64,000 nucleotides of DNA from Labilithrix sp. (GTDB lineage: Bacteria > Myxococcota_A > Polyangia > Polyangiales > Polyangiaceae). The position numbers were made by a program, and so were the translations under genes. This document shows positions 40,463-50,188 of the stretch, one piece after another (the stretch's first letter is position 1; the number at the start of each line of letters is the position of its first letter). The notes under the pieces are model-generated. The model did not search any database, was not told the DNA's origin, and saw nothing but the letters and a program-made list of their open reading frames with translations. The stretch covers positions 1-64,000 of the forward strand of contig JAHBWA010000005.1 of assembly GCA_019637195.1 (NCBI GenBank), read 5' to 3'.

Positions 40463-40526
40463 CGCTCGCCCCGAGCGCGACCGCGAAGCCTGCTGGGCCG
40501 AAGCATGCTGGAGAGTCCGCCGCGAC

Positions 40527-40620
40527 GACGTCGCTGCGTCGAGCGTCGCAGATCGCGGGGGCGGAGGCGTACGCCTTAAACTAGGCCTAGGTCCGTCGCG
40601 CTCCCCGTGAGCTAATGGCG
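40527..40620 (+). promoter_or_regulatory. Shared upstream element, copy A (EGF-repeat gene)
   Basis: This 94-base stretch matches the reverse complement of 47765-47858 at 84 positions without gaps; the core 40570-40620 differs at only one of 51 bases. It holds the palindrome CTAGGCCTAG (40581-40590), 67 bases upstream of the EGF-gene ATG, and GAGCTAAT (40609-40616). Similarity fades but continues through the leader: the ribosome binding site GGGGAG (40643-40648) and ATG (40658) here correspond to GGGGCC and ACG in copy B. It is probably a common promoter/operator. Confidence 0.75.
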
Positions 40621-40657
40621 CTGAATTGTCGGCGCACGACACGGGGAGACACTCCGA

Positions 40658-43600
40658 ATGAACGGCTCCAATCCGGTACGCCCTGCGACGAGCCCCTCCG
40701 CTCCGCAGGGCGGCCGAGCGCGGTGGGGGTGCTTCGCGCTGCTCGTCGGCGCGCTCTTCGTCCTCGGATGTACACAGTCGACGAGCGGTGACGAGGGCTC
40801 GGCGGACTCCGGCGCGGCCGAGGACGCCTCCGGCGCTCGCCCCGACGCGAGCGTGGGCCCCACGGACGGCGGCGGCGCCACCGAGTGCGCGATCGGCAAC
40901 GGCGGCTGCGATCCGCTCGCGACCTGCACGAAGACAGCCACCGGCCGGACCTGCACGTGCCCGACCGGCTACACGACGGCCGACGACGGCGTCACGTGCG
41001 ACGAGATCGACGAGTGCCTCGTGAACAACGGCGGATGCTCCGCGGCAGCGACGTGCGAAAACACGCCGGGTTCGCGCACGTGCGTCTGCGGTCGCGGATA
41101 CACGACGACCGACCATGGCATCACGTGCACCGACGTCGACGAGTGCCTGGTCGCCAACGGCGGATGCTCGGTGAACGCGACGTGCAAAAACACGCCAGGA
41201 TCGCGCACCTGCACCTGCCTGAACGGCTACGCGTCGACCGACGACGGCGTCACGTGCACCGACGTCGACGAGTGTCTCGTCGCCAACGGCGGATGCGCGG
41301 CCAACGCGACGTGCGATAACACGCTGGGGGCTCGCACCTGCACCTGTCCGAACGGCTATGCCACGGCCGACCAGGGGATCACCTGCGACGACATCGACGA
41401 GTGCCTCGCCGACAACGGCGGGTGCGCGCCGAACGCAAACTGCACCAACACGCCGGGAGCGCGCACGTGCGCCTGCCCGAACGGATTCACGACCAACGAC
41501 GAGGGCGTCACCTGCACGGACGTGGACGAGTGTCTCGTCGACAACGGCGGGTGCGCGCCGAACGCGACCTGCACCAACACGCCGGGGTCTCGTGCGTGCG
41601 CCTGCCCGAACGGGTATACGACGACCGACGAGGGCGTCACCTGCACGGACATCGACGAGTGCCTCGTCAACAACGGCGGATGCTCCGCGGCAGCGACGTG
41701 CGAAAACACGCCGGGGTCGCGCACGTGCGCGTGCGCTGCCGGCTACACGACGACCGACGCCGGCCTGACCTGCAACGACGTCAACGAGTGCCTCACCGAC
41801 AACGGCGGCTGCGACGCCCGCGCGACCTGCACCAACACCTTGGGCAGTCGCATCTGCACGTGTGCCGCCGGCTGGGCATCGACCGACGGCGGCGCGACGT
41901 GCGACGACGTCGACGAGTGCCTCACGGGCAACGGCGGCTGCGACGCCCACGCGACCTGCACGAACACCATCGGGAGCCGCGCGTGCGCGTGCGACTCCGG
42001 CTGGCGGGGGCCTGGCACGTCGTGTGTGGACGTCGACGAGTGCCTCACGGGTAACGGCGGCTGCCACGTCAACGCGACCTGCACGAACACGCCCGGGGCG
42101 CACGACTGCACGTGCAACGCCGGCTACGAGGGCAGCGGAATCGCGTGCACCGACGTCGACGACTGCTCGCCGAACCCCTGCAACAACGGCGGAACGTGCA
42201 CGGACCGCCTCCTCGGCTTCACGTGCGCGTGCAGGCCCGACTACTACGACGCGACCTGCTCGACCTACGACCCGCCACCGGGGCCGGTCATCGGCTTCAC
42301 CTACTCGGAGCACGGACGCGTGGGCCTCCACTGGAAGCCACCGGCGGATCCCGACTGGCGCAACGTGCGGATCGTCCGAAAGACCGCCTCGGCTCCCGCG
42401 AGTCCGACGGACGGAACGGTCGTCTACGAGGGCAGGGAGCGATTCGTGTTCGACGCGACGGCCATCGTCGCGACGGCGTACCACTATGCCGCGTACACCT
42501 ACGATGACCGCGGATCGGTCTCGACGCCGGCGCGCATCTCGTTCACGCCGAGCTGGATCCTCCGCCGATTCACGGCCAGCGCCGACGTCGCCCGCGATCC
42601 GCAGTTCCCCTACTTCACCGTGCACGCGTGGGGAGCCGGCGGCGGCGGCCGCGGCGCCAACGGCGGCGGCGGCGGCTACGCGACCAGCTACGGACAGATC
42701 CTTCCGGGTGAGACTTGGCGCGCGATGGTGGGCCGCGGCGGCGACTATCGGGGTACCGGCGGCTACAACGGGACCGAAGACATCGGGCGCGGCGGTCTGG
42801 ACCGCGATATCTACATCCCCAGTGGCGGTCAGATGTCGGGCTTCTTCCGAAAGCCCGGCTCCGGCGTGCCCACGGCCATCTCGGAATGGAGCGTCATCGC
42901 CGGAGGAGGCGGCGCGTCGGGCAGCCTCGACGCCGGGATGCCGGGCGGCGGCGGCGGCTCTCCGGGTTCTGGGGTCCGGCCAGGCCTGCCGGGCGCCAAT
43001 GGCTTGGGCGGCGCCAGCAGCGTCACGCAGACCGCGATTGCCCCCGGCCTCGCGTTCGCCGACGGCGGCCACGGCGCGACCACCGCCACCTGCTCCGCCA
43101 CTTGCGGCGGTCCGGGCGGAGGTGGTTACGGCGGCGGCGGCGCTGGCAGGACGGTCTCCGCTCGGGGGAACTCCTGGGCCGGCGGCGGCGGCGGCGGCAA
43201 CTACGCGAGGAACGCCAACGGGCTCACGAGCCGCACGACGAACGCCGGCGCCTACTATGCGGCGGAGGAGGACTCGCCGTTCTACCCGACCGACGGCTCG
43301 GACCCCGCGCGCGGCGGTCCCGCGAACACCGGGGGACGCAATGGCCACGTCGTCGTCGTCCTCACGCGCTGTCCGGGCAACATGGGCGGACCGACGTGCA
43401 GCGACGTGACCGCAGGCAGCGCTCCCGTGACGGAGCTTCGAGCGTCGACCGGCGCGATCGTCCTCGGCTGGAAGCTGCCTCCCGACGCCGTCGACGCGAT
43501 CCGGATCTTCCGTTCGACGACCGCCTATGCGACGACGCCCGACGACGAAACGGTCCTCGTCGACGTGCCGGGGACGGAGACGTCCTTCGCCGACCCGATC

Positions 43601-44605
43601 GCGGTGCCCGGCGTCTACTACTACAGTCTCTTCACGCGCAACGCCGCCGGCGTGTACTCGTCGGTGGCGAACGTCACGGGCGAGATGTGCACCGTCTGCC
43701 GTATGACGGCGAGCAACGCCATCGTCGTTCCTGATGGGATGGCGAGCATGACCGTGAAGGCGTGGGGCGCCGGCGGCGGCGGCGGCTACGACCGTGACAT
43801 GGGCTATCGGAGCAGCGCCGGCGGCGGCGGCGGCTTCAGCTCGAGCACGACCGCGGTGAGCCCGGGCGAGACGTTCCGCGCGATCGTCGGCGGCGCAGGC
43901 TCGCTCGCGTTCGTTGGGGCCCCCGGAGAGGGATACAACGGCGTCGACGACATCGGACGCGGAGGCATCTCGGCCTGCCGCGACGGCGCGACCGGAGGCC
44001 AGATGTCGGGGGTCGTAAGGGTCCCGCTCTCGAGCGCGCCCCTCCCTCTCGCGATCGGCGACTGGCTCGCGATCGCCGGCGGTGGCGGCGGCGGTCACGG
44101 CTCGACCCGATCGACGGGCGCTGCGGGAGCCGGCGGCGGGATCGCCGGTCAGGCCGGTCAGCCCGTTCAGGGATACACTGCGATTGGTGGGACGGGCGGG
44201 CAGGGCGGCGTCGGCGGCACGGCCGGCAGCGATCCAAACCAAGACGGCACCGCCACCGCTGGCTCCAGCTGGAGCGACGGCGGACGGGGCGGCCGTGTCG
44301 ACTCCCGTTGGTACGGCTTCGGCGGGCCCGAGTGCGGCGGAGCCGGAGGCGGTGGCTACGGCGGCGGCGGCGGCAGCGCCCGACACGCCGACTTTGCCGC
44401 CGGCGGTGGCGGCGGCGGCGGTTACGCGCCGAACGGCGGCACGACGAGCGTAGGCAACTTCCAGGTCCCTGCGAACACGGCGGACCCCGACTACCCCGCG
44501 GGCTGGCACCCCGGCTACGGCGGCAACGCGGTCACTTGGGTCAACTGGGTCCCCACCAACATCGGCCTTGGGGGGAACGGCTACGTCGTCGTGCGGTTCC
44601 AGTGA
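40658..44605 (+). CDS. Giant lipoprotein: 11 EGF-like repeats, then two fibronectin-like plus ALK-type glycine-rich units
   Basis: The protein has 1315 residues with a lipobox (LFVLGC, C38). Residues about 76-534 are eleven EGF-like repeats; numbers 2-10 carry the calcium-binding D-[VI]-[DN]-E-C start and six cysteines each, with a repeat of about 41 residues. Next come a fibronectin-like segment (VGLHWKPPADPDWRNVRIVR) and a glycine-rich domain with AWGAGGGG, GETWRAMVG, VIAGGGGA, GYGGGGAG and AGGGGGGNY. The same pair is then repeated (IVLGWKLPPDAVDAIRIFR; AWGAGGGGG, GETFRAIVG, AIAGGGGGG, GYGGGGG, AGGGGGGGY). The glycine-rich part matches the ALK/LTK receptor glycine-rich domain pattern. It is a surface-anchored adhesin or structural protein by inference. 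It overlaps the next gene by TGATG. Confidence 0.9.
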   Translation: MNGSNPVRPATSPSAPQGGRARWGCFALLVGALFVLGCTQSTSGDEGSADSGAAEDASGARPDASVGPTDGGGATECAIGNGGCDPLATCTKTATGRTCTCPTGYTTADDGVTCDEIDECLVNNGGCSAAATCENTPGSRTCVCGRGYTTTDHGITCTDVDECLVANGGCSVNATCKNTPGSRTCTCLNGYASTDDGVTCTDVDECLVANGGCAANATCDNTLGARTCTCPNGYATADQGITCDDIDECLADNGGCAPNANCTNTPGARTCACPNGFTTNDEGVTCTDVDECLVDNGGCAPNATCTNTPGSRACACPNGYTTTDEGVTCTDIDECLVNNGGCSAAATCENTPGSRTCACAAGYTTTDAGLTCNDVNECLTDNGGCDARATCTNTLGSRICTCAAGWASTDGGATCDDVDECLTGNGGCDAHATCTNTIGSRACACDSGWRGPGTSCVDVDECLTGNGGCHVNATCTNTPGAHDCTCNAGYEGSGIACTDVDDCSPNPCNNGGTCTDRLLGFTCACRPDYYDATCSTYDPPPGPVIGFTYSEHGRVGLHWKPPADPDWRNVRIVRKTASAPASPTDGTVVYEGRERFVFDATAIVATAYHYAAYTYDDRGSVSTPARISFTPSWILRRFTASADVARDPQFPYFTVHAWGAGGGGRGANGGGGGYATSYGQILPGETWRAMVGRGGDYRGTGGYNGTEDIGRGGLDRDIYIPSGGQMSGFFRKPGSGVPTAISEWSVIAGGGGASGSLDAGMPGGGGGSPGSGVRPGLPGANGLGGASSVTQTAIAPGLAFADGGHGATTATCSATCGGPGGGGYGGGGAGRTVSARGNSWAGGGGGGNYARNANGLTSRTTNAGAYYAAEEDSPFYPTDGSDPARGGPANTGGRNGHVVVVLTRCPGNMGGPTCSDVTAGSAPVTELRASTGAIVLGWKLPPDAVDAIRIFRSTTAYATTPDDETVLVDVPGTETSFADPIAVPGVYYYSLFTRNAAGVYSSVANVTGEMCTVCRMTASNAIVVPDGMASMTVKAWGAGGGGGYDRDMGYRSSAGGGGGFSSSTTAVSPGETFRAIVGGAGSLAFVGAPGEGYNGVDDIGRGGISACRDGATGGQMSGVVRVPLSSAPLPLAIGDWLAIAGGGGGGHGSTRSTGAAGAGGGIAGQAGQPVQGYTAIGGTGGQGGVGGTAGSDPNQDGTATAGSSWSDGGRGGRVDSRWYGFGGPECGGAGGGGYGGGGGSARHADFAAGGGGGGGYAPNGGTTSVGNFQVPANTADPDYPAGWHPGYGGNAVTWVNWVPTNIGLGGNGYVVVRFQ
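40884..42260 (+). repeat. Tandem EGF-coding repeats
   Basis: About eleven tandem units of roughly 123 bases, each coding one EGF-like domain, lie inside the large lipoprotein gene. Units 2 and 7 share near-identical stretches (for example the code for NNGGCSAAATCENTPGSRTC), and units 5 and 6 are also very similar, which points to recent unequal recombination. Copy number is likely to vary between strains and to be fragile in assembly. Confidence 0.9.
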
Positions 44606-45276
44606 TGCGAAGGCCAGCGCGAGCACGAGCGTGGATCCTGTCGGCGGCGCTCGTCGCGTGCTCGAAAGAAGCGAAGCAAGAAGGAGCGAGCCCTCCGTCG
44701 GAGGCGAGCAGCGCTCTCGCCGGCGACGCGATGACCGCGCCCTCCGCGGCCGCCTTCGCCCCCGAGCCACCCGCCGCGAACGCGGACCTCGTGCGGCGCT
44801 TCCCCGACGAGGAGCGGCTCGACAATCCGAAGGAGCGGCTCGTCCACGGCCCGGCGATCGTCCGGCTCGATCCTGCGTCGACGCGGACGAGCGCGTTCTT
44901 GCCGTCGTCCACCGAGGTCGTGCTCGTCGCGCGCGCGAAGGTGGACGAGCGATCGTGGGTGCTCGTCAGCTATGGCAGCCCCTTCGACAGGACAGCCCGC
45001 CTGAACGGCTGGGTGCCCCACGAAACGCTCTCCGGCGAGCCTCCTCGCGATGCAGCCGACGGCGGCAGCCCCAAGACACCGAAGCCCGCCGCGCGCTGCG
45101 CCAAGGGAGAGGTGCTCGTCTGGGGAGAGGTCGCCACGTGCGAGCGCGCCTGCTCCGACGATTCAGGATGCAGAGGCGGAGAACGCTGCTTCGGCGTCGC
45201 TCCGGAGCTCGTGGGCGGCGGTCTCGGGAGGTTCGCGTCTTTCTGCGTCGGGCCGAAGAGCGGACCCGCAAAGTGA
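44605..45276 (+). CDS. Lipoprotein with SH3-like segment, coupled to the EGF-repeat gene
   Basis: The protein has 223 residues starting at the ATG within the TGATG overlap with the EGF-repeat gene. Lipobox ALVAC (C19). After an Ala/Pro linker, residues about 75-145 (TEVVLVARAKVDERSWVLVSYG ... RLNGWVPHETL) look like a bacterial SH3 domain. The C-terminal 60 residues hold six cysteines (CAKGEVLVWGEVATCERAC, CRGGERCFG), a small disulfide-rich knot. Tight coupling suggests it is made with, and may bind, the EGF/glycine-rich protein. It converges with an RCC1-type gene 12 bases away. Confidence 0.85.
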   Translation: MRRPARARAWILSAALVACSKEAKQEGASPPSEASSALAGDAMTAPSAAAFAPEPPAANADLVRRFPDEERLDNPKERLVHGPAIVRLDPASTRTSAFLPSSTEVVLVARAKVDERSWVLVSYGSPFDRTARLNGWVPHETLSGEPPRDAADGGSPKTPKPAARCAKGEVLVWGEVATCERACSDDSGCRGGERCFGVAPELVGGGLGRFASFCVGPKSGPAK

Positions 45277-45288
45277 CGCGCGTGCTCG

Positions 45289-47658
45289 TCACCAGCGGAC
45301 GAGCACCGGCGACGACGACATCGCCTCCCTGAACGTCGCATCGCCGAGCTGCCCGTCCTCGTTCCAGCCCCAACAGCGGACGGTGTTGTCGCTCCGCTGC
45401 GCGCAGACGTGATTCGCACCGGCGGCGACCGACGTGACGTTCGAGAGCCCGCCGATGGCGACGGGGACTTCGGAGGTCCAGATGGCGGGATCCCCGAGCA
45501 GACCAGCGGAGCTCAGTCCCCAGCAGCGAACGGAGCCATCGGCGAGGCGCGCGCAGGTGTACTGCTCACCGGCGACCACGGAGGTGGCCGCGGGAAGTCC
45601 TTCGAGCGCCCGCGGGGTCATCGGCATGTCCCACCACCCCGTGCCGGTCTGCCCGTGCTCACTGCTTCCCCAGCACGACGTGACGCCGTCGCTCGTGACG
45701 GCGCAGGTGTGGACGCCGCCCGCGGCGACCGAGACGACGTCGCTGAGGTCGAGGACGGCGACGGGCAAGGACCATTCGCCCCACGTCCCGATCCCGAGCT
45801 GCGCGAAGCCGTTTGCGCCCCAGCAGCGGAGCGACCCGTCGCTCGCGACGATCGCGCACGTGTGGCTGCCGCCAGCCGCGACCGCGGTGACCGCCGGGAG
45901 GCCTTGAACGGCTACGGGCGAGCTCGACGGGATCGTCGTGCCGCTTCCGAGCTGACCGCTGCTGTTGTCGCCCCAACATTGGACGGCGCCGTTCGCGACG
46001 GCGCAGGTGTAGTTGCCGCTCGCCGCGATCGCGGTCACGCCCGTGAGCCCGGGGACCGGAACGGGAGAGCGGCGCGCGATCGTCGATCCGTCACCGAGCT
46101 GCCCCGCGGCGTTGGCTCCCCAGCAGTGGACGGCGCCGCCGTTCACGACCGCGCAGCTATGGGAGTTGCCCGCAGCGATCGCGACGACGCCACCGAGACC
46201 GGGGACGGTGACGAGAGAGCGGCGTTCGGCCGTCGACCCGTCGCCGAGCTGGCCGCTGCTGTTTCCGCCCCAGCAGCGGACGGTGCCGTCGAGCATGCGC
46301 GCGCACGTGTGGCGATAGCCGGCAGCGAGCTCGACCGCGCCCGCGCAGTCCGTCGAGTTCGGAGTGGTCGTCGTCTCACCGGGGACGGCGCACGCCTCGC
46401 ATCGTCGATTCGTCAGCGTGGTCCCGGCAGCGCTCATCTGCTCGCCCGGCACGCAGGTGCTCCAGGGCGTGCAGCTCGCGACGTTCTCGGTCGTGCTGAA
46501 GCTCTCCACGCACGTCACGCACGTCCGATTCGTCGTCGGGCTGCCGGTGTCCGCCACGACGGCGCTGCCTGGAGCGCAGACCGTCCAGGGCGCGCACGCG
46601 GTCTTGGTGTCGCCGTCGTGATCCCAGGTGCCGCTCGCGCACGTCTCCTTCGGCGTCGCGCCGCCCGGGCAGTACGCCCCCGGGTCGCAGGCCAGGCAGA
46701 CCGGCGGTGAGCTCGGCGTCGCCGCGGCCGTCTGCTCCGTCCCGGCGGCGCAAGCTCCGGCGGGCAGACACTGCAGCTGGTTCGGCGACGACGCGTACGT
46801 CCCTCCCCCGCACGGGGTGCACCGCCGATCGGCGATCGGGCTCGGCTGCTCGTCGACGAAGTTGCCCGGAGCGCAGTCGCTCCAGGGCGCGCACGCCGGC
46901 GCGTTCGACGTCGACGCGAAGGTGCCGGTCGCGCAGTCGGTGCACGTCCTGTCGACGGCCGTGCCGCCGTCTTCCGCGACGGCCTGACCTGCGACGCACA
47001 CGGTCTTCGGGACGCAGGCCGTCGCCGGCGAGCCGTCGTCGTCCCAGGTCCCGGCGGCGCAGCTCGCCTTCGGAGCAGCGCCGCCCGCGCAGTGAGTGCC
47101 GGGTGGACACGGAACGCAGACCGCGGGCACGAGCGGCGTCGCGGCGGCCGCTTGCTCGGTGCCCGCGGGGCACGCGCCGGCGGGCAAGCAGCTCGATTGA
47201 TTCGCCGACGGCGCGAACGTCCCGGCGGCGCAGCGCGCGCACTGCCGATCGGCGGAGGCCGAGGGCGCGGCCGTGACGAAGGTCCCGGCGGCGCAGTGGC
47301 GCCAGGTGGTGCAACCGGTGGCGTTCGAGGTCGCGCTGAAGGTGCCGCTCGGACACCCGACGCACCTCCTGTCCGCCTTGGCCGAGGGCACCTCCGCGGC
47401 GTACGTCCCTGGCTCGCACTCCGTCCATGCCGCGCAATCCGTCGTCGGATCGCCGTCGTGGTCCCACGTCCCGTCGGCGCACACGGGGACCGGAGCGCCG
47501 CTGTCCGCCGGCTCGCCGCCTCCCGCGTCGGTCGTCCCCGCACCGGCGCCCTCGCTGTCCGGCGCGTTCGAGGGATCGCCGCCGCATGCTCCGAGCGAGA
47601 GGACGAGCGTGGCGGCGACGACCTTGGCGGAAGCTGTCGTGATCCGAGGCAACTTCAT
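45289..47658 (-). CDS. Lipoprotein with Cys-rich ephrin-receptor/TNFR-like repeats and a seven-bladed RCC1 propeller (paralogue A)
   Basis: The protein has 789 residues; lipobox LSLGAC (C25). Residues about 60-450 are Cys-rich repeats of the GCC2/GCC3 (ephrin-receptor/TNFR-like) kind (CPSGTFSATSNATGC, CAAGTFVTAAPSASADRQC), punctuated by an acidic GTWDHDGDP/GTWDDDGSP element three times. Residues about 455-789 are seven RCC1 blades, each with HTCA...(R)CWG...GQLGDG, so each blade carries two cysteines likely to form a disulfide. It is probably a secreted ligand-binding or adhesion protein. The ATG at 47658 is preferred because the upstream site aligned with the EGF-gene start is ACG here. It is divergent from paralogue B. 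Confidence 0.92.
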   Translation of the reverse strand: MKLPRITTASAKVVAATLVLSLGACGGDPSNAPDSEGAGAGTTDAGGGEPADSGAPVPVCADGTWDHDGDPTTDCAAWTECEPGTYAAEVPSAKADRRCVGCPSGTFSATSNATGCTTWRHCAAGTFVTAAPSASADRQCARCAAGTFAPSANQSSCLPAGACPAGTEQAAAATPLVPAVCVPCPPGTHCAGGAAPKASCAAGTWDDDGSPATACVPKTVCVAGQAVAEDGGTAVDRTCTDCATGTFASTSNAPACAPWSDCAPGNFVDEQPSPIADRRCTPCGGGTYASSPNQLQCLPAGACAAGTEQTAAATPSSPPVCLACDPGAYCPGGATPKETCASGTWDHDGDTKTACAPWTVCAPGSAVVADTGSPTTNRTCVTCVESFSTTENVASCTPWSTCVPGEQMSAAGTTLTNRRCEACAVPGETTTTPNSTDCAGAVELAAGYRHTCARMLDGTVRCWGGNSSGQLGDGSTAERRSLVTVPGLGGVVAIAAGNSHSCAVVNGGAVHCWGANAAGQLGDGSTIARRSPVPVPGLTGVTAIAASGNYTCAVANGAVQCWGDNSSGQLGSGTTIPSSSPVAVQGLPAVTAVAAGGSHTCAIVASDGSLRCWGANGFAQLGIGTWGEWSLPVAVLDLSDVVSVAAGGVHTCAVTSDGVTSCWGSSEHGQTGTGWWDMPMTPRALEGLPAATSVVAGEQYTCARLADGSVRCWGLSSAGLLGDPAIWTSEVPVAIGGLSNVTSVAAGANHVCAQRSDNTVRCWGWNEDGQLGDATFREAMSSSPVLVRW

Positions 47659-47764
47659 CGTGTGCGTCTCTGTCGGGCGGTCCGGAGGGGTCCGTCGCAG
47701 GCCGAGCCGGGCTCACCCCGTTCGTTCGGAGCGTCGGCCCCGGATGTCGTGCGCAGACGTTCCT

Positions 47765-47858
47765 CGCCATTAGCTCACGGGGAGCGAGACGGACCTAGGC
47801 CTAGTTTAAGGCGTACTCCTCGGCCCTGCCGATCTGCGACGCTCCGGATAGCGACGTC
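47765..47858 (-). promoter_or_regulatory. Shared upstream element, copy B (between the two RCC1 genes)
   Basis: This is the inverted copy of 40527-40620 (84 of 94 bases identical, core 47765-47815). The palindrome CTAGGCCTAG at 47795-47804 lies 136 bases upstream of paralogue A (minus) and 86 bases upstream of paralogue B (plus), so one operator could serve both divergent genes. Relative to copy A, the aligned leader has lost the ribosome binding site (GGGGCC) and the start codon (ACG at 47725-47723). Confidence 0.75.
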
Positions 47859-47890: not shown

Positions 47891-50188
47891 ATGAAGGAAC
47901 GGGGCACGCGCGTTGGGTCGACGGCGACGGCGGTCTTTCTCGTCCTCGCGGGGGCGCGCGCTCTCGAAGGGTGCAGCGCGGAGCACGGGAGCCTCCCTGC
48001 CGACGCGAGCCTCCTCGACGAGGCGAGCCTCCCGAACGGCGACGGCGGAGCGCCGCCTCCCGACGCGGGCGGCGCGGGCTGCGCCGCCGGGACGTGGGAT
48101 CACGACGGAGACCCGAACACGGCCTGCGTCGCGTGGTCGACGTGCGGGGCAGGGACCTACGTGAGCGGCGTCCCCTCGGGCAGCTCCGACCGGACCTGCT
48201 CCGGGTGCCCGAGCGGTACCTTCAGCGCGACCACCAACGCTCCCGCGTGCGCCGTCTGGAGCACCTGCCCCGCCGGCAGCTTCGTGACGACGGCCGGAAC
48301 GGCCTCCGCCGATCGGCGTTGTGCCCCGTGCGCGGACGGCACGTACGCGTGGTCTGCGAATCAGTCGCGCTGCCTGCCGCCGGGCGAATGCGCAGCAGGC
48401 ACCGAACAGATCGCCGCTGCGGCCCCGCCCCTGCCCGCCGTCTGCGCTCCGTGTCCGATCGGGACCCATTGCGCCGGCGGGACCTCGCCGCGAGAGGAGT
48501 GCCCCGGCGGGACATGGGATCACGACGGCTCGCCAGCGACGGCGTGCGTCGCCAGGACGGCGTGCGTCGCGGGACAATCGGTCGCCGCCGAGGGCGGTGC
48601 TGCGGCGGATCGGGCTTGCACGCCGTGCGTGAGCGGCAGCTTCAGCGCGACCGCGAACGCCCCGCGGTGCGCGCGATGGCGGACCTGCGAAGCCGGCACC
48701 TTCGTCAGCACCGCCGGGAGCACGACCACCGACCAGCAATGCTCCGCCTGTCCGGACGGCCGGTACTCGTCGTCGTCGAATCAATCCACTTGCCAGGCTC
48801 CCGGCGCGTGCGCGCCCGGCACCGAGCAGATCGCCGCGAGCACGCCGACGTCGCCGGCGGTCTGCGCCCCTTGCGGAGCGGGGAGCCATTGCCCCGGCGG
48901 CGCGTCGCCGAGGCGAGCTTGCGCGACGGGCACCTGGGATCACGACGGCCGGGCCGACACCGCGTGCGTCGCTTGGTCGAGCTGCGCCGCCGGGAGCCAG
49001 GTCGCGACGAGTGGCAACGCGACGACGGACCGGACGTGCTCGGCATGTTCGAACGGCTTCAGCTCGACGTCGAACGCTGCGAGCTGCGCCGCGTGGACGA
49101 CGTGCGCGCCGAGCACGTACGTGACCGCCGACCCAACGCTCGTCGCGGATCGGCAGTGCGCGCCGTGCCCCGCCGGAGTCACGTCCACATCGCCGAACTC
49201 GACGGGCTGCTGGGGGGCCGTCGAGGTCGCCGGCGGCTACAACCACACCTGCGCGCGTTTGATCGATGGCTCCGTCTTCTGTTGGGGAGACGACACCTAC
49301 GGGCAGCTCGGCGACAGGCTCTCGGGGATCACTGCGCTCGCCGCCGGTGGCCATCACAACTGCGCGATCATGGCCGACACGACCGTTCGCTGCTGGGGAA
49401 GCAACGTGTGGGGTCAGCTCGGCGACGGAACGACGACCGGCGGCGCGGCTCCGGTCGGCGTCGCCGGCCTCACCGGCGTGGTCGCCGTCGCCGCGGGCGA
49501 CGGCCACACCTGCGCGAGCCTGAACGACGGTTCCCTTCGCTGCTGGGGACGAAACAACACCGGCGCCCTCGGCGATGGATCGACCACGAACCGTTCACTT
49601 CCGGTCGCCGTCCCTGGGGTGTTGGGCGTCACCAGCGTCGCCGTGGGCTCGGGTCATACGTGCGTGAGCCTGAACGATGGCACCGTTCGGTGTTGGGGCA
49701 GCAACGGCAGCGGCCAGCTCGGGAACGGGACGCTCTCCGGCGTCGTGGCGATCACGGCCGGTAGCTCGCACACGTGCGCGCTTCTCCAGGACGCTACGGT
49801 CCGCTGCTGGGGAGACAACGCGCTCGCGCAGCACGGAAGTGGTGCGGCATCGGAGGGAGGTCCGTCGCCGTCCGTCGTCCAGGGGCTCACGGGGGTGGTC
49901 TCACTCGCGGCGGGGGCCAATCACACCTGCGCTCGCGTCGCGGGCGGCTCGGCCTATTGCTGGGGCTACAACACGTCGTACCAGCTCGGCACCACCAGCT
50001 ATTCGTCGGGTCCGGCGGCCAAGGTGGCGTCACTGTCGGGCGTCGACGCCGTCGGCGGAGGCCTGGAGCACTCCTGCGCGGTGCTCGCGGATCGCTCGAT
50101 TCGCTGCTGGGGAGCAAACACCCGTGGCCAGCTCGGCAATCCGACGGCGGGTAGCTTCAGCGCCGCTCCACGTCTCGTCCTTTGGTAG
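47891..50188 (+). CDS. Lipoprotein with Cys-rich ephrin-receptor/TNFR-like repeats and a seven-bladed RCC1 propeller (paralogue B)
   Basis: The protein has 765 residues with a lipoprotein signal (ARALEGC, Cys near residue 28). It has the same layout as paralogue A: Cys-rich repeats (CPSGTFSATTNAPAC, CPDGRYSSSSNQSTC) with GTWDHDGDP, GTWDHDGSP and GTWDHDGRA elements, then seven RCC1 blades with HTCA...CWG cysteines. Two inter-blade linkers are about 15-17 residues shorter than the others, after blade 1 (GQLGDRLSGITAL) and after blade 4 (GQLGNGTLSGVVAI), which look like in-frame deletions of the outer loop. Divergent from paralogue A with 232 bases between starts. Confidence 0.92.
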   Translation: MKERGTRVGSTATAVFLVLAGARALEGCSAEHGSLPADASLLDEASLPNGDGGAPPPDAGGAGCAAGTWDHDGDPNTACVAWSTCGAGTYVSGVPSGSSDRTCSGCPSGTFSATTNAPACAVWSTCPAGSFVTTAGTASADRRCAPCADGTYAWSANQSRCLPPGECAAGTEQIAAAAPPLPAVCAPCPIGTHCAGGTSPREECPGGTWDHDGSPATACVARTACVAGQSVAAEGGAAADRACTPCVSGSFSATANAPRCARWRTCEAGTFVSTAGSTTTDQQCSACPDGRYSSSSNQSTCQAPGACAPGTEQIAASTPTSPAVCAPCGAGSHCPGGASPRRACATGTWDHDGRADTACVAWSSCAAGSQVATSGNATTDRTCSACSNGFSSTSNAASCAAWTTCAPSTYVTADPTLVADRQCAPCPAGVTSTSPNSTGCWGAVEVAGGYNHTCARLIDGSVFCWGDDTYGQLGDRLSGITALAAGGHHNCAIMADTTVRCWGSNVWGQLGDGTTTGGAAPVGVAGLTGVVAVAAGDGHTCASLNDGSLRCWGRNNTGALGDGSTTNRSLPVAVPGVLGVTSVAVGSGHTCVSLNDGTVRCWGSNGSGQLGNGTLSGVVAITAGSSHTCALLQDATVRCWGDNALAQHGSGAASEGGPSPSVVQGLTGVVSLAAGANHTCARVAGGSAYCWGYNTSYQLGTTSYSSGPAAKVASLSGVDAVGGGLEHSCAVLADRSIRCWGANTRGQLGNPTAGSFSAAPRLVLW

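Follow-up and report, generated by a model that had tools for sequence, protein, structure and literature searches.

To our knowledge, the fold of the ALK ectodomain has mostly been discussed as a peculiarity of animal receptors, with a few look-alikes in phages. For these receptors, ALK and LTK, the PDB includes complexes with ALKAL ligands. On the phage side, the fiber of Pam3 has been solved and its glycine-rich domain (GRD) compared with C. elegans ALK, and the distal glycine-rich loops of the GRD of gp24 were proposed to bind the host receptor (PMC9608196). A study from 2010 described a GRD that occurs in the BspA proteins of Trichomonas and also in Flavobacteria, C. difficile, B. cereus and phages, and in which certain residues other than glycine are conserved; it is not known to have drawn a link to ALK (PMC2843621). 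As for myxobacteria, their kin-recognition receptor TraA carries a PA14 domain, TIGR04201 repeats and MYXO-CTERM (PMC3325183).

The protein compared here with these systems is encoded in a stretch of 64,000 nucleotides (the window) comprising positions 1 to 64,000 of contig JAHBWA010000005.1 of Labilithrix sp., from a genome of 10.1 Mb in 381 contigs (GCA_019637195.1). The gene (40658–44605, + strand) codes for 1315 amino acids, arranged as a signal peptide, eleven EGF-like repeats and the series FN3-GRD-FN3-GRD, with NGYVVVRFQ at the C-terminal end. The signal peptide, as read from the sequence, has a lipobox-like VLGC with the cysteine at position 38 (LVGC in its 83%-identical ortholog, see below). 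The EGF array (residues ~76–535; 40883–42262, +) matched the Pfam families EGF_3 (6e-81) and EGF_CA (4.9e-62 over 10 stretches). Ten of the eleven repeats follow the pattern "C..NGG[CT]", with start points between residues 77 and 462 and a DNA period of mostly 129 bp, and the eleventh is a classical EGF (about residues 503–535). They are mostly of the calcium-binding type D-[VI]-[DN]-[ED]-C, with nine D[VI][DN][ED]C motifs along the array, and agree with the calcium-binding EGF consensus (six cysteines plus D-x-[DN]-[EQ]-C), arginine mostly replacing the usual aromatic residue after Gly-Ser. The first FN3-like domain (residues 537–631; 42266–42550, +) was modeled by AlphaFold2 with a pLDDT of ~80, and the model has the FN3 sandwich, with VIA Z values of 10–11 against the FN3 domains of fibronectin, titin and tenascin; the Pfam search of the window protein was silent on FN3. 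The second FN3-like domain (residues 906–1009; 43373–43684, +) was assigned by alignment only, as part of the second copy of the FN3-GRD unit. GRD1 (residues 632–905; 42551–43372, +; 28% glycine) contains in this order the blocks AWGAGGGG, VIAGGGG, GYGGGG and AGGGGGGNY, and GRD2 (residues 1010–1315, i.e., up to the C terminus; 43685–44602, +; 30% glycine) the blocks AWGAGGGGG, AIAGGGGGG, GYGGGGG and AGGGGGGGY. The first-pass annotation of the window had read this gene as eleven EGF repeats joined to two units of FN3 plus a glycine-rich part with the block order of ALK. The open reading frame, the Pfam EGF matches and the fold of the first FN3 copy bear out the layout, and the named blocks are found in the sequence of both GRDs.

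We modeled GRD2 with AlphaFold2 from nine sequences, with templates off. The model had a mean pLDDT of 53.5 and a pTM of 0.65, the strands of the sandwich being mostly at 80–89. In the glycine loops, where structure prediction was to serve as a check of the suggested polyglycine-II packing, pLDDT was mostly 28–43. The top structure in the VIA alignments was the Pam3 phage fiber (Z 12.9, rmsd 2.9, 166 residues aligned), and it was followed by ALK (Z 11.7, rmsd 4.3, 201 aligned), LTK (Z 11.1, rmsd 4.1, 196 aligned), SCD-2 (Z 10.3, rmsd 3.8, 173 aligned) and the Bxb1 tail tip (Z 10.2); the next unrelated row had a Z of only 3.2. The TM-scores obtained with Foldseek were modest (0.3–0.4), which is what one expects of a model whose loops are loose. 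A TNF-like core, and with it the TNF-like-plus-glycine fold of the solved ALK and LTK structures, is supported for GRD2 by this model. The resemblance to ALK and LTK that had been noticed from the order of the blocks is therefore real at the level of the fold (Z 11.7 and 11.1, against 3.2 for the next unrelated row).

By sequence, the link to ALK passes through other bacterial GRDs. With the Pfam profile ALK_LTK_GRD (PF12810, cut-off 24.5 bits), GRD1 scored 10.6 bits (E 0.55) and GRD2 gave no match, both below the cut-off, while two other proteins of the same genome scored 50–52 bits. Neither GRD matched Gly_rich_2 (PF21722) at E ≤ 10, direct searches of Pfam, NCBIfam and PHROGs with these domains yielded at most weak matches, and phmmer with GRD2 found no match in the PDB. 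We then used a profile made of eighteen GRDs from other proteins of related genomes (two of them from the window's genome), nearly all of which match PF12810. GRD2 scored 54.2 bits and GRD1 24.9 bits with this profile. As controls, 300 shuffles of each GRD were made in each of four ways (full shuffling, dipeptide Markov, 25-aa blocks, and permutation of the non-glycine residues with all glycines fixed), and not one of the 300 of any kind reached the observed score. With the glycines fixed, the best of 300 was 4.4 bits for GRD1 (24.9 observed) and -4.8 for GRD2 (54.2 observed). The closest control was the reordering of blocks (maximum of 33.9 vs. 54.2 for GRD2 and 20.5 vs. 24.9 for GRD1), indicating that the blocks as such account for some of the score and that their order adds to it, clearly in GRD2 and narrowly in GRD1. 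Chance glycine composition as the source of the likeness to ALK is ruled out by these shuffles.

When a profile of eleven GRDs from the relatives, with those of the window excluded, was run against all PDB chains, it matched nine distinct sequences (E-values from 4e-17 to 7e-12), which belonged without exception to ALK, LTK or C. elegans SCD-2; there were zero matches to other glycine-rich chains or to solved phage fibers. In hhalign the GRDs of the window protein and its ortholog aligned to this eleven-GRD family with a probability of 98.8%, over the N-terminal half. Two other profiles did not get as far: with one built from the window GRDs, those of the ortholog and a single partial relative, ALK chains were absent from the PDB matches, and another with nine rows found only LTK at an E of 0.34. 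The sequence link needs the profile of the relatives. Judged from these profile comparisons, the window GRDs are kin to the ALK/LTK domain by way of intermediate bacterial relatives. The match to the ALK_LTK profile that the first pass had anticipated did not appear in its direct form, the window GRDs falling below the PF12810 cut-off, although the profiles of the relatives do connect them to ALK and LTK.

We consider that the product is a secreted, lipid-anchored adhesin or receptor of the cell surface with an EGF/FN3 stalk and ALK-type tips, and give this reading a probability of roughly 0.5. The lipidated N-terminus would anchor the protein, the eleven EGF repeats would form a rod, presumably stiffened by calcium, and this rod would present the two FN3-GRD units, with ligand binding probably falling to the GRDs; the small lipoprotein encoded downstream probably aids the display or may act together with the large one. 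We infer that the protein is exposed at the surface, that it binds a ligand and calcium, and that it may act jointly with the partner; ligand binding by the GRDs, specifically, is proposed because the solved relatives, i.e., Pam3 gp24 and ALK/LTK with ALKAL, bind partners. It counts against this reading that the loops expected to bind the ligand by analogy with Pam3 are modeled at low confidence. Another reading takes the GRDs to be captured tips of phage tail fibers that now serve the cell. The best structural match is a phage fiber (Z 12.9), matches with E ≤ 0.001 number 227 among predicted structures from viruses, and the nearest outside row in the GRD tree is a contig of a viral collection. 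However, this viral neighbor is weakly supported and joined by long branches (93/81), tblastn of GRD2 gave zero matches in 50,697 phage records, and the profile of bacterial GRDs finds ALK and LTK, but zero solved phage fibers, by sequence. We regard phage capture as unlikely.

The window protein is one of many GRD proteins in its phylum. Of 284 genomes sampled across Myxococcota, 44 had matches to PF12810, with up to nine per genome among the matches listed (family f44). Among 145 close relatives there were 15 such genomes, 14 control genomes had zero matches, and a profile that includes window-like GRDs had a match in 19 of 116 relatives. Most of the PF12810 proteins examined are lipoprotein-like, with a single C-terminal GRD behind a cysteine-rich array. 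The array consists of Stig1 repeats at L056, L058, L064 and L085, and of other cysteine-rich repeats at L057, L060 and L067; the protein of L075 combines TNFR repeats with Gly_rich_2, the sister domain of the GRD, and those of L134, L137 and L138 have cysteine-rich repeats and several beta-type domains before the GRD. In a few the GRD lies elsewhere in the chain (near the N-terminus at L001 and L066). At L137 (788–16529) four lipoprotein-like genes of ~1200 aa stand in tandem, each with a C-terminal PF12810 match (best 162 bits). The GRD of L067 (1441–3546, −) starts, by eye, with an ALK-like "FTTCGA..GPT"; of the bacterial layouts examined, it may come nearest to the animal ALK domain. The window protein shares with these Cys-rich-array proteins (Stig1-GRD, TNFR-Gly_rich_2, Cys-rich/beta-domain-GRD) the lipoprotein-like N-terminus, the disulfide-rich array and the C-terminal GRD; it differs in its EGF repeats, its FN3 domains and its two GRDs, the others examined having one. 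Besides the ortholog, no EGF-FN3-GRD chain was found among the Myxococcota GRD proteins examined. The first-pass suggestion of something not yet described in bacteria was too strong as far as the domain is concerned, given how often PF12810 is matched in the phylum (44 of 284 genomes) and the bacterial and phage GRDs already in print (PMC9608196 and PMC2843621). Neither the class of myxobacterial GRD lipoproteins nor the EGF-FN3-GRD layout was found described in the open-licence literature that we searched.

Compared to ALK and LTK (PF12810; PDB 7NWZ, 7NX0, 7LIR), the likeness lies in the predicted GRD2 fold (Z 10–12 over 173–202 residues), the order of the blocks and the closing strand. As for the differences, the window protein is a bacterial lipoprotein in which eleven EGF repeats precede two GRDs, each of these standing behind an FN3 domain; it ends with the GRD, no transmembrane segment or kinase following, and had no kinase match in Pfam. 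With the phage tips Pam3 gp24 (7YPX), Bxb1 tail tip (9D93) and S16 gp38 (6F45), GRD2 has in common the TNF-like sandwich and the glycine-rich loops (PMC9608196). Unlike them, it belongs to a cellular lipoprotein, and neither a helical trimerization stem nor a fiber chaperone was seen beside it. The BspA-GRD proteins of Trichomonas vaginalis and the GRD proteins of Clostridium phages, likened here by description only, have leucine-rich repeats rather than EGF and FN3 (PMC2843621). A rival reading is that of a structural matrix or filament protein, in which the GRDs of neighboring molecules would pack to give the surface a stiff layer. Cross-linking would be possible with two GRDs in each chain, and the EGF rod is long, but the relatives of similar plan usually have a single C-terminal GRD, and the solved ones are tips or ectodomains that bind partners, not filaments (PMC9608196; ALK/LTK complexes). 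This role seems improbable to us.

A full ortholog of the 1315-aa protein was found in only one other genome of the 145 searched, that of Myxococcales bacterium 68-20 from the same genus, so that its function is not a core one, which also counts against the adhesin or receptor reading. The two are 83% identical, with a dN/dS of 0.46 over the whole length and 0.33 for the EGF repeats, and the gene is under selection. In the tree, the GRDs of both orthologs, four in all, grouped together (100/99), and long branches join the outside rows to this group. Since each GRD copy pairs with its ortholog, the simplest account is a duplication of the FN3-GRD unit within the gene that predates the split of the two species. 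Another rival is a role as kin-recognition ligand or receptor in the manner of TraA, with polymorphic tips on a cysteine-rich stalk and self-binding between sister cells. TraA also presents a recognition domain on a stalk of cysteine-rich repeats (PMC3325183), and the GRD proteins that some relatives have in several tandem copies would be in keeping with polymorphism. However, the PA14 domain, the TIGR04201 repeats and the MYXO-CTERM of TraA were not found in the window protein (PA14 and MYXO-CTERM by Pfam and NCBIfam), and its GRDs are about as conserved as the EGF part (83–85 vs. 83% identity, from two orthologs only). Kin recognition appears quite improbable. The stiff filament or kin-recognition ligand put forward in the first pass finds no support.

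The adhesin or receptor that we favor would have a partner in the small lipoprotein encoded downstream (44605–45276, +; 223 aa), an open reading frame with a lipobox LVAC, a possible SH3-like fold and a tail with six cysteines. The junction of both genes (CCAGTGATGCG) contains a TGATG overlap, as the first-pass annotation had stated, that is identical in the pair of orthologs, and this conservation suggests translational coupling of the partner to the GRD gene. In one other genome, the 87% identical ortholog of the partner adjoins the 84% identical ortholog (C-terminal half) of the large protein. Matches to the partner, mostly diverged, were found in 20 of 145 genomes. Most of the relatives examined lie in a common neighborhood with products resembling, by eye, those of alaS, radA and sucC, and so does a second copy in the window's own genome (L045). 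With the exception of the ortholog, there was no GRD gene beside them at the loci examined. We rejected the partner as a dedicated companion of GRD proteins across myxobacteria, most of its relatives being in this housekeeping-like neighborhood without a GRD gene, and the copy beside the GRD gene in the window seems to be a recruited paralog. The Pfam scores of the family were below threshold (WAP in 6 of 13 members, best E 0.012; SH3_3 in 3 of 13, best E 0.061), and the profile search for SH3 chains with the partner found none. As to the coupled pair proposed in the first pass, the overlap speaks for it, but the partner is conserved together with the large protein in one other genome only and has its relatives elsewhere. 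The lipid anchor could instead hold the protein inside the periplasm, as a lipoprotein for the upkeep of the cell envelope with no role outside the cell; the conserved, housekeeping-like surroundings of the partner's relatives fit this, but arrays of EGF, FN3 and GRD modules would otherwise point to an extracellular protein, and a rod of eleven EGF repeats with four further domains would be long for the periplasm. We consider this reading improbable.

A leader element of ~180 bp is found upstream of the GRD gene (40526–40706, +) and again, on the other strand, upstream of a gene for a lipoprotein with TNFR and RCC1 repeats (47858–47677, −). The part that precedes the GRD open reading frame (131 bp, 40527–40657) occurs precisely twice in the 10-Mb genome, and both leader copies are kept in Myxococcales bacterium 68-20. 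The core (GTACGCCTTAAACTAGGCCTAGGTCCGT.GCGCTCCCCGTGA.CTAATG) is almost invariant across copies and species, the leader had no match in Rfam, and it is probably a shared promoter or regulatory leader, to judge from this conservation. The leader reaches 49 bp into the GRD gene and so covers the first 16 codons (40658–40706), which match the untranslated leader of the other gene, where ACG stands at the position of the predicted ATG start. This other gene (RCC1-A; 45289–47658, −; Pfam TNFR_c6 and RCC1) and the one at 47891–50188 (+) are divergent and code for lipoproteins in which TNFR cysteine-rich repeats are joined to RCC1 repeats, a eukaryote-like combination. The leader copies form an inverted repeat flanking the block of GRD gene, partner and RCC1-A (40526–47858 in the window; 4934–12340 in L036). 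In Myxococcales bacterium 68-20 this block is reversed relative to RCC1-B, a difference that could reflect an inversion between the leader repeats. A LuxR gene also differs from 68-20 in position and orientation, i.e., the history of rearrangement is not simple.

The ALK-type fold is thus a recurrent, mostly C-terminal domain of lipoprotein-like proteins of myxobacteria, and the similar proteins of Myxococcota are most likely sticky or sensing tips on stalks. A broader view, which we hold as doubtful, is that stalked surface lipoproteins form a large, as yet undescribed class in Myxococcota, with ligand-binding tips homologous to the corresponding region of ALK/LTK, the ALK ectodomain descending from a bacterial recognition domain or sharing an ancestor with it. 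If this were true, the ancestral job of the ALK ectodomain would become testable in bacteria. The GRDs of myxobacteria would offer simple bacterial systems for the study of the ligands of this fold, and a richer sample from which to approach the origin of the ligand-binding domain of ALK.
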